From: Geoglobus sp.
GTDB lineage: Archaea; Halobacteriota; Archaeoglobi; Archaeoglobales; Archaeoglobaceae
Assembly (NCBI GenBank): GCA_027019885.1
Contig: JALUWC010000248.1
Coordinates: 1 to 10,566 of the forward strand
Direction: 5' to 3'
DNA length: 10,566 bases
Part shown: positions 898-10,566 of the stretch, piece by piece
Position numbering within the stretch: position 1 is the stretch's first letter
Layout of the letters: every line of letters starts with the position of its first letter
The notes under the pieces: generated by a model
Databases searched by the model: none
What the model was told of the DNA's origin: nothing
The model's input: the letters and a program-made list of their open reading frames with translations, nothing else
Program-made: the position numbers and the translations under genes

Positions 898-921
898 GGC
901 TATTGTTAATCAACAAAATTT

Positions 922-929
922 GATATAGT
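922..929 (-). promoter_or_regulatory. TATA-like element of the MBL hydrolase gene
   Basis: Read on the minus strand this is an AACTATATC-type A/T element about 28 bases before the ATG at 897. That is the distance expected for an archaeal promoter driving a very short leader. It lies only about 10 bases from the plus-strand TATA-like element at 940-947, making a divergent promoter pair. Confidence 0.4.
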
Positions 930-939
930 TTGCGATTGG

Positions 940-947
940 TATTTATT
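940..947 (+). promoter_or_regulatory. TATA-like element for the H/ACA guide RNA
   Basis: TATTTATT is centred about 25 bases before position 969, where the first basal stem of the structured RNA begins. Spacing and orientation suit an archaeal promoter starting transcription at about 967-970. No protein gene on this strand would explain it. Confidence 0.45.
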
Positions 948-966
948 TTCTGAGGTATAGTTATCT

Positions 967-1186
967 GTGCCCCAGCCGGGGAGGGTGCGGAGAAAGCTTT
1001 GCTCTCGATGAGGCTCTCTGCAAGCGCTGGGGTTACACCATGTTGCATGGTCCCCGGGTGAGAGAGGAGCAAATGCTCCGTCAGTGATCCTGGGGCAACC
1101 CCGACATGGGACAACCCCGAACGGTCAGCCGTCCTGAGGCAGCTTGAGCTTGCGATGAGGGATGGTGTTAGATTCGGGGGACATGA
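967..1186 (+). ncRNA. three-hairpin H/ACA guide RNA (rRNA pseudouridylation)
   Basis: This GC-rich island between A/T-rich flanks folds by eye into three consecutive H/ACA units. Unit 1: basal stem 969-975/1027-1033, upper stem 987-993/1015-1021, ACA 1035-1037. Unit 2: basal stem 1038-1044/1103-1109, upper stem 1052-1058/1089-1095, ACA 1111-1113. Unit 3: basal stem 1115-1121/1173-1179, upper stem 1128-1134/1160-1166, ACA 1181-1183. Every basal stem is 7 bp (G-U pairs allowed) and each ACA begins two positions after it ends. The upper stems end 14, 16 and 15 nt before their ACA, matching the family rule. Units 2 and 3 have kink-turn signatures above the upper stem: UGA 1059-1061 opposite GUGA 1084-1087, and CUGA 1134-1137 opposite GAUGA 1154-1158. 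These would bind L7Ae in a Cbf5-Nop10-Gar1 particle. The apex of unit 1 is less clear. A. fulgidus is known to have H/ACA RNAs, including, as I recall, one with three hairpins (Afu-46). Identity with it is untested. Exact ends are inferred. Confidence 0.75.
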
Positions 1187-1255
1187 TGACTGTAGTCCAT
1201 TAACCACTGGGGCGTGTCAGGATAAAAAAGAATGCTGATTTTAAACCTTTACATC

Positions 1256-9296: not shown

Positions 9297-10566
9297 GTGA
9301 GGATTCACGGTAAGCCCATCACGGAAATCAAGCCAGAAGGGATAGAGTGGTTCTGGACGAAGCACTACGACAAAGGAGTTCCAGAACCGTGGAAATTCCA
9401 GAGATCCCGCTCTACGAGCTTCTCGACAGAACTGTAAGGAGACTGCCGAACAAGGTGGCCATTGATTTCCTCGGAAGGAGGATGAGGTACAGGGGACTCA
9501 AGGAGCTGTCAGATAGAGTTGCAGGGTTTTTAAAAGGACTCAGAGTTGGTAAGGGCGAGAGAGTTGTGATAGATCTCCCAAACACTCCCCACTACATCAT
9601 CGCCTACTACGGCATTCTAAAGACAGGAGCAACAGTGGTTCAGGCGAATCCGCTCTACACAGAAAGAGAGCTCAGGCACATAGCCGAGAACAGCGGAGCA
9701 AAGATCTTCTTTGCCGTTGAAAATGCATTTTCGAAAGTGTACCAGCTCAGGAGAGAGGGACTGATAGATAGGGTCATCGTCTGCAGGATAGAGGACTACC
9801 TGCCGTTTCCGCTGAACTTCCTTTACAGGCTGAAAAAGGAGAGGGTGAAAATACCCGAAGAGGAGGGAATCCTTTTCTGGAATGAGATTATTCAATCAGA
9901 GCCGATAACAAGCCCGGAGAAGGTAGATCCAAAGGAGGATGTTGCTGTCTTTCAGTACACTGGAGGCACGACAGGACTGCCCAAGGCTGCAATGCTCACT
10001 CACTACAACTTAGTTGCCAACACGTACCAGATAATCCACTGGCTTCCCGGCTCCAGCGAGAACGATGTTGTTAGTGGCATTCTGCCCTACTTCCATGTCT
10101 ACGGAATGACAACCAGCATGAACATGCCGATTGCTGTCGGAGCCAAAATAATTCTGCTTCCAGATCCGAGGGACATAAAGAGAATACTGAACGCAATAGA
10201 GAAACACCGCATAACCCTGTTCTTCGGAGTACCAACCCTTTTCAATGCGATAAACACACATCCTGACACTCCGAAGAAGAATTTAAGAAGTATAAGGCGT
10301 GCATATCTGGTTCAGCTCCACTCCCGCTTGAGGTAAAGAGGGAGTTCGAGAGGATAACTGGAGGAAAGCTGGTGGAAGGCTATGGTCTGAGTGAGACAAG
10401 CCCTGTCACTCATGTCAACCCAATCAACGGCGAGAACAGAGAGGGCAGTATAGGGCTGCCCATACCAAACACCCACGCAGTCATCATAGACGAGGAAGGC
10501 ACAATCCTTCCTCCGGGAGAAATCGGAGAGCTTGCAATTCATGGGCCTCAGGTGATGAAGGGATAT
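9297..10566 (+). pseudogene. AMP-forming acyl-CoA synthetase with two frameshifts, cut by the window edge
   Basis: This family activates fatty acids with ATP and CoA. The reading frame begins at GTG 9294 or 9297 (VRIHGKPITEIKPEGIEWFW...) and runs to about 9383, where it reads GVP. It continues in the -1 frame from ~9383 (RTVEIPEIPLYELLDRTVRR) to ~10296, including the P-loop YTGGTTGLPKAAML (~9956-9997). A second -1 shift occurs near 10295-10297, and the third segment resumes with ACISGSAPLPLEV and the A5 motif EGYGLSET (~10375-10398), open to the end. Each junction is mended by one extra base, and protein similarity continues smoothly across both. Either the gene is decayed or the sequence has two single-base deletions. 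The C-terminal AMP-binding subdomain lies beyond the window. Starting at GTG 9347 would hide the true N-terminus. Confidence 0.85.

Follow-up and report, generated by a model that had tools for sequence, protein, structure and literature searches.

The stretch of DNA analysed here (10,566 nucleotides from Geoglobus sp.; hereafter the window) almost certainly contains the gene of a three-hairpin H/ACA guide RNA of the HgcG/Pab40/Afu-4 family, a reading to which we give a probability of about 96%. The RNA proper runs on the + strand from its first stem at position 969 to about position 1186 and is composed of three tandem H/ACA hairpins. It would be transcribed from its own promoter and most likely directs an enzyme to ribosomal uridines for conversion to pseudouridine. 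The family, fold, conservation and covariation of the RNA, the families of its partner proteins and its complementarity to rRNA are established in this analysis. A preliminary description of the DNA had placed three hairpins of an H/ACA guide RNA here and on this strand, and both the position and the RNA class are borne out. The features are as follows.

914..1188, + strand: full span of the RF00064 match; the first ~55 positions of the model are unpaired and lie over leader and promoter sequence.
940..947, + strand: putative TATA-like box TATTTATT, 22–29 nt before the first stem, assigned from sequence.
969..1037, + strand: hairpin 1; lower stem 969–976/1026–1033; 5' guide CGGGG 977–981; upper stem 982–988/1013–1019; G.A pairs 990–991/1010–1011; 3' guide GCAAGC 1020–1025; ACA 1035–1037; best two-sided rRNA partner 23S GCUUGC[U]ACCUCG.
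1038..1113, + strand: hairpin 2; lower stem 1038–1044/1103–1109; 5' guide GCAUGGU(C) 1045–1052; upper stem 1052–1058/1089–1095; G.A pairs 1060–1061/1086–1087; 3' guide (GC)AACCC 1095–1101; ACA 1111–1113; best partner 23S GGGUU[U]AGACCGU, second GGUUGU[U]CGCC.
1115..1183, + strand: hairpin 3; lower stem 1115–1121/1173–1179; 5' guide CGGUCA 1122–1127; upper stem 1128–1135/1159–1166; G.A pairs 1136–1137/1157–1158; 3' guide GUUAGA 1167–1172; ACA 1181–1183; best partner 23S GUAAC[U]AUGACC.

The Rfam covariance model RF00064 (HgcG/Pab40, archaeal H/ACA RNA) reaches 93.1 bits (E = 1.2e-24) at positions 914–1188 (+), where 77 is the gathering score, and the alignment spans the whole model (positions 1–276 of 276). 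Such a search had been proposed in the preliminary description, which left the family (HgcG/Pab40, called Afu-4 in A. fulgidus) unnamed. No other Rfam match in the window exceeds a gathering score, and the locus is the only RF00064 match in the assembly. HgcE/Pab105 (RF00060) matches hairpin 3 weakly, as another H/ACA RNA might, but its 17.2 bits lie far below the cut-off of 50. A minus-strand match to mir-744 (19 bits against a cut-off of 87) was rejected as chance.

The family is already known, and the Geoglobus RNA adds one further representative, orthologous to A. fulgidus Afu-4 (Af4). We take L021, in genome G036, to be Afu-4; it shares the hairpin 3 site with the window's RNA and is 58.9% identical to it over the aligned span, flanks included. 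The likeness to Pyrococcus HgcG/Pab40 lies in the three hairpins and the full-length RF00064 match, a comparison made through the covariance model rather than with a Pyrococcus sequence. In addition, we equate the hairpin 1 and hairpin 3 sites with the reported Pab40 sites L2588 and L2016. The two RNAs differ in hairpin 2, which here fits two sites other than L1932, the target named for Pab40.2 in the available part of the literature. As a feature the RNA is ordinary; the joint change of guide and target seen for hairpin 1 and the narrowing of the hairpin 2 fit, described below, are small testable additions. It also exemplifies a guide RNA that can be read from raw sequence, and it fills a blank left by protein-gene callers.

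As read from the sequence, each hairpin is built on a lower stem (8, 7 and 7 pairs in hairpins 1–3) that opens into an internal loop carrying both guide strands; above the loop follow the upper stem, a bulge of 3 nt and a capping stem. The lower stem of hairpin 1 contains seven Watson–Crick pairs and one G.U pair and is followed by one U and then ACA; if the G.U is not counted, the spacer becomes two bases. The lower stems of hairpins 2 and 3 each contain seven pairs, including one U.G in hairpin 2, and a single G separates each from its ACA box (1111–1113 and 1181–1183). The originally described arrangement of a 7-bp stem, exactly one base and ACA is therefore that of hairpins 2 and 3, whereas hairpin 1 has a one-base spacer only with the G.U as an eighth pair. 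When eight pairs are counted in L021 and similar relatives, no spacer precedes the hairpin 1 ACA.

By hand count, 15, 15 and 14 nt separate the closing pair of the upper stem from ACA in hairpins 1, 2 and 3, in agreement with the 14–16 nt noted at the outset and with archaeal H/ACA spacing. Tandem G.A pairs adjoin the 3-nt bulge in all three hairpins, as read from the sequence, so the kink-turn signatures first seen in two hairpins are present in every one. The upper stems comprise ten layers, as in a 10-layer GA stem, when mismatches and the two G.A pairs are included in the hand count. According to the available text of PMC4652768, productive folds have 14–15 nt to ACA, and 14 of 15 such folds have an upper stem of 10 bp. 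Archaeal H/ACA RNAs with two or three hairpins are described as rare in the accessible part of a review (PMC7991803); Pf7, a Pab40 homologue, has three hairpin motifs according to excerpts of PMC2584109.

The fold of positions 967–1188 is more stable than that of any of 200 dinucleotide-shuffled sequences (z −3.31); together with the Rfam E-value, this upholds the early judgement that the arrangement is unlikely to arise by chance. Taken singly, hairpin 2 (z −3.32, 1/200 shuffles as stable) and hairpin 3 (z −2.47, 2/200) are also stable, and hairpin 1 is not unusually so (z −1.68, 14/200).

RF00064 matches at E ≤ 0.001 occur in 62 of 119 genomes searched, and 44 exceed the cut-off; both counts include the window's own. 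Covariation was assessed on 27 of 30 sequences, with L017, L018 and L026 omitted as distant, cut off or bearing a large insertion, and with the structure taken from the window. Of the resulting cells (36 pairs in 27 sequences), 93.3% are standard-paired, against 33.5–50.5% when the pairing is slid by one to three columns. Twenty-three of the 36 pairs differ on both sides, and none of 500 shuffles reaches either the pairing fraction or this count. These are the compensatory changes within Archaeoglobales that had been named beforehand as a check. The covariation score is 0.447 compared with 0.208 in shuffles; the number of further pair types is reached by 21 of 500 shuffles. The weakest helix is the upper stem of hairpin 1, with 83.3% of cells paired. 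The lower stem of hairpin 1 is excluded from the 36 pairs because it is one column out of register for the window's genus; it was counted apart by best offset, a procedure that leans towards pairing, and over 45 sequences 7 of its 8 positions vary in pair type. All four bases of the tandem G.A pairs are conserved in 26, 27 and 26 of the 27 sequences for hairpins 1, 2 and 3, respectively.

Strong stems and a high G+C content against A/T-rich flanks, the latter contrast already pointed out in the preliminary description, would also be expected of GC-rich inverted repeats, such as an attenuator, a terminator cluster or a REP-like element, that resemble H/ACA hairpins by chance. This explanation is made extremely improbable by the full-length family match and the covariation, by guide loops and ACA boxes that are conserved, and by the constant distance of an upstream A+T peak. 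A protein-coding origin is just as improbable. A minus-strand frame of 128 aa is indeed open at 821–1207, but it has no Pfam match, and conservation in the region tracks the RNA pairs while loop lengths vary by single bases.

The guide RNA gene lies between two minus-strand genes. A metallo-β-lactamase-fold gene (97–897) is divergent from it. The proS gene occupies the minus strand from 2763 to 1279; the RNA hence lies downstream of and convergent with proS, and not upstream of it as first supposed. In the named Geoglobus loci L047 and L048, the RNA likewise follows the end of proS and is encoded on the opposite strand; in a third Geoglobus proS locus, L049, the sequence ends 214 bases past proS. 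The neighbourhood is not general, since only 2 of 18 scanned proS loci, both from Geoglobus, carry the RNA alongside (the 18 being a subset of 80 named proS loci that were found).

The A+T fraction reaches 1.0, 0.98 and 0.96 at positions −28, −27 and −26 before the first stem in 45 sequences, the window included. This peak fits an archaeal TATA box together with transcription that starts at the first stem, which is also the 5' end of Pab40 by RNA-seq according to the portion of PMC4652768 available. However, only 15 of the 45 sequences have their best octamer match to TTTATATA at −32 to −29, and in the window it is at −49, which counts against the TATA assignment. The divergent plus-strand TATA-like box proposed earlier is matched by TATTTATT at 940..947 and by the A+T peak, but not by the position of the best TTTATATA match.

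Profile searches of the assembly found Nop10 (3.3e-22), the DKCLD domain of Cbf5 (1.5e-14) and Gar1 (1.2e-7), as well as two L7Ae-family matches that are not told apart. The contamination rating of the assembly is 8.75%, so one or another of these partner genes could come from a different organism. We infer transcription, RNP assembly, modification and the choice of uridine along the following lines. The RNA would be read on the + strand from its own promoter. L7Ae would bind each hairpin at the kink-turn, and Cbf5–Nop10–Gar1 would bind it at the lower stem and the ACA box. Base pairing between the internal loop and rRNA would flank a single uridine, and Cbf5 would convert this uridine to pseudouridine. 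Hairpin 1 most likely targets the uridine of 23S GCUUGC[U]ACCUCG, which we equate with P. abyssi L2588. For hairpin 2, the most likely target is the uridine of 23S GGGUU[U]AGACC, possibly together with that of GGUUGU[U]CGCC (taken as A. fulgidus L2601), and for hairpin 3, the uridine of 23S GUAAC[U]AUGACC, which is L1970 in A. fulgidus and L2016 in P. abyssi.

No 16S or 23S gene was found in the window's own assembly, so targets were read on the rRNA of relatives. A two-sided scan at fixed register on G001 rRNA, with 1000 shuffled guides as control, is the sole scan that singles out plausible sites; in unconstrained or one-sided scans other pairings rank above them. Bipartite complementarity around an unpaired U-N is present on the relatives' rRNA for all three hairpins, and shuffled guides do as well in 0/1000 (hairpin 1), 9/1000 (hairpin 2, first register) and 145/1000 cases (hairpin 3 alone), counts that are optimistic because the registers were chosen after candidate sites had been seen. 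In an energy scan that also admits one-sided pairing, the 23S site of hairpin 1 takes second place after U1726, where pairing is one-sided, and the top score is reached by 9 of 200 shuffled guides; the corresponding numbers are 23/200 for hairpin 2 (first register) and 52/200 for hairpin 3. The guide–target table covers 45 sequences drawn from the 62 genomes with an RF00064 match: the 30 from which the covariation set was taken and 15 more.

In the register fixed by the closing pair, the window's hairpin 1 guide forms 6+5 bp with 23S U2558 (G001 numbering) in GCUUGC[U]ACCUCG, and its next best two-sided site offers 4+3 bp. The 23S site has further uridines at −3 and +15, a spacing equal to that of the T. 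kodakarensis pseudouridines 2589, 2592 and 2607. The site is equated with P. abyssi L2588 on this shared spacing, rather than by alignment. The accessible text of PMC6138745 equates T. kodakarensis U2592 with P. abyssi U2588 and states that Pab40 modifies the latter in vitro.

Pairing of at least 6+5 bp with the genome's own 23S is found in 13 of 19 genomes, a set obtained from 21 genomes with 23S by removing G050 (bacterial-looking sequence) and G057 (site not found). Six fall short, and two of these form a co-changed pair. In G027, which we take to be A. profundus, and G017, of the same genus, the 23S reads GUUUGC[U]ACAUCG with two bases changed, and the guide has changed to match: it forms 8+4 bp with its own target, against 4+1 with the standard one. 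The 42 guides outside this genus form 0–1 bp on the 3' side of the G027 target. In G015, a G stands in place of the hairpin 1 uridine, and one side of the guide has lost its match; this 23S is not a bacterial stray, being ~91% identical to that of a genus mate. Poorer fits occur in G013 (4+7), G021 (3+4) and G016 (5+0 as extracted).

Hairpin 1 could instead mainly guide 16S U1167 (A. fulgidus numbering), its 23S complementarity being secondary. The available part of PMC4652768 lists Af4.1 with S1167, crediting Tang et al. 2002. At S1167, A. fulgidus-type guides (L021) form 4+6 bp, and the window's 5' guide pairs over 5 bp. Yet in the single register tested the window forms 3+5 bp there against 6+5 at the 23S site, and further relatives, L007, L011, L012 and L027 among them, form 0 bp on one side. 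In G027, moreover, the 16S site is unchanged, yet its guide pairs with that site over only 4+1 bp and with the altered 23S site over 8+4. A primary role at U1167 is therefore unlikely. Natural guide–target pairs that change together are evidence of the target in the living cell, and the joint change suggests that the published Archaeoglobus target assignment is worth rechecking. In the balance of these comparisons, we lean somewhat towards the reading that this one Archaeoglobales RNA combines guide–target co-evolution, with the 23S L2588 equivalent rather than 16S U1167 as the conserved target of hairpin 1, and a target shift, with a dual-target hairpin 2 narrowed to one site.

Hairpin 2 can address two 23S uridines located 31 nt apart. 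At the first site, GGGUU[U]AGACCGU (G001 U2648), the window forms 5+6 bp in a register that requires a slip of the upper stem. At the second, GGUUGU[U]CGCC (G001 U2617), it forms 6+3 bp, which is not significant (110/1000 shuffles as good). Applying a constant offset of five, we equate the second site with A. fulgidus L2601. Among 45 sequences, 27 form at least 6+5 bp at the L2601 site; nine, comprising all seven of the window's genus and two others, form 6+3 there and 5+6 at GGGUU[U]AGACC; and nine show neither pattern. The 5' guide reads GCAUGGU in the window and GAUAGGU in Afu-4, giving 3 versus 7 bp on that side at the L2601 site. A. fulgidus pairs 6+7 at the L2601 site and also 7+4 at GGGUU[U]AGACC. 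Because it fits both, the window's genus differs by the weakening of one of two fits and not by a clean exchange: by its predicted pairing, it has kept the fit to one 23S uridine and lost much of that to the L2601 site. The GGGUU[U]A site is presumably the Haloarcula 2621 site. The part of PMC2584109 available proposes the Haloarcula 2621 site as a target of the corresponding Haloferax hairpin and also of Pab40, if the latter adopts an alternative fold. The window's hairpin 2 may still serve both sites, since a productive guide with a one-pair 3' duplex is on record in the available text of PMC4652768.

The hairpin 3 guide forms 4+5 bp with 23S GUAAC[U]AUGACC, which we take to be helix 69; its next site offers 5+3, and the fit on its own is not significant. 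At least 4+5 bp are present in 43 of 45 sequences. The assignment follows from homologous reports (Af4.3 to L1970, Pab40.3 to L2016) and from in vitro modification, as Pab40 and Afu-4 RNAs both made the hairpin 3 pseudouridine according to the accessible part of PMC2584109. The 23S of G015 (L135) carries UAACUCUGACC in place of UAACUAUGACC in the hairpin 3 target region. The 23S of G050 (L141), from an archaeal assembly, has a bacterial-looking helix 69 sequence, which suggests a contaminating contig.

A literature search returned no title on this RNA in Geoglobus among the matches listed, and no paper was found on Geoglobus and pseudouridine; Tang et al. 2002 or Muller et al. 2008 may already name the 23S target of Afu-4.

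Several weaker observations accompany these results. Second HgcG-like matches of 25–34 bits occur in G016, G026, G017 and G053 (L160, L161, L162 and L163) and are perhaps other H/ACA RNAs of these genomes. A weak HgcG match of 21.7 bits (L164, G001:C1:438900-439150) lies ~93 nt upstream of the G001 16S rRNA gene, perhaps a chance match in the pre-rRNA leader or an H/ACA-like element. At the far end of the window, an AMP-binding (PF00501) ORF at 9347–10336 (+) stops at 10336 and, judged by eye, appears to continue in another frame from 10372 to the window end at 10566 (+), perhaps owing to a frameshift or a sequencing error.
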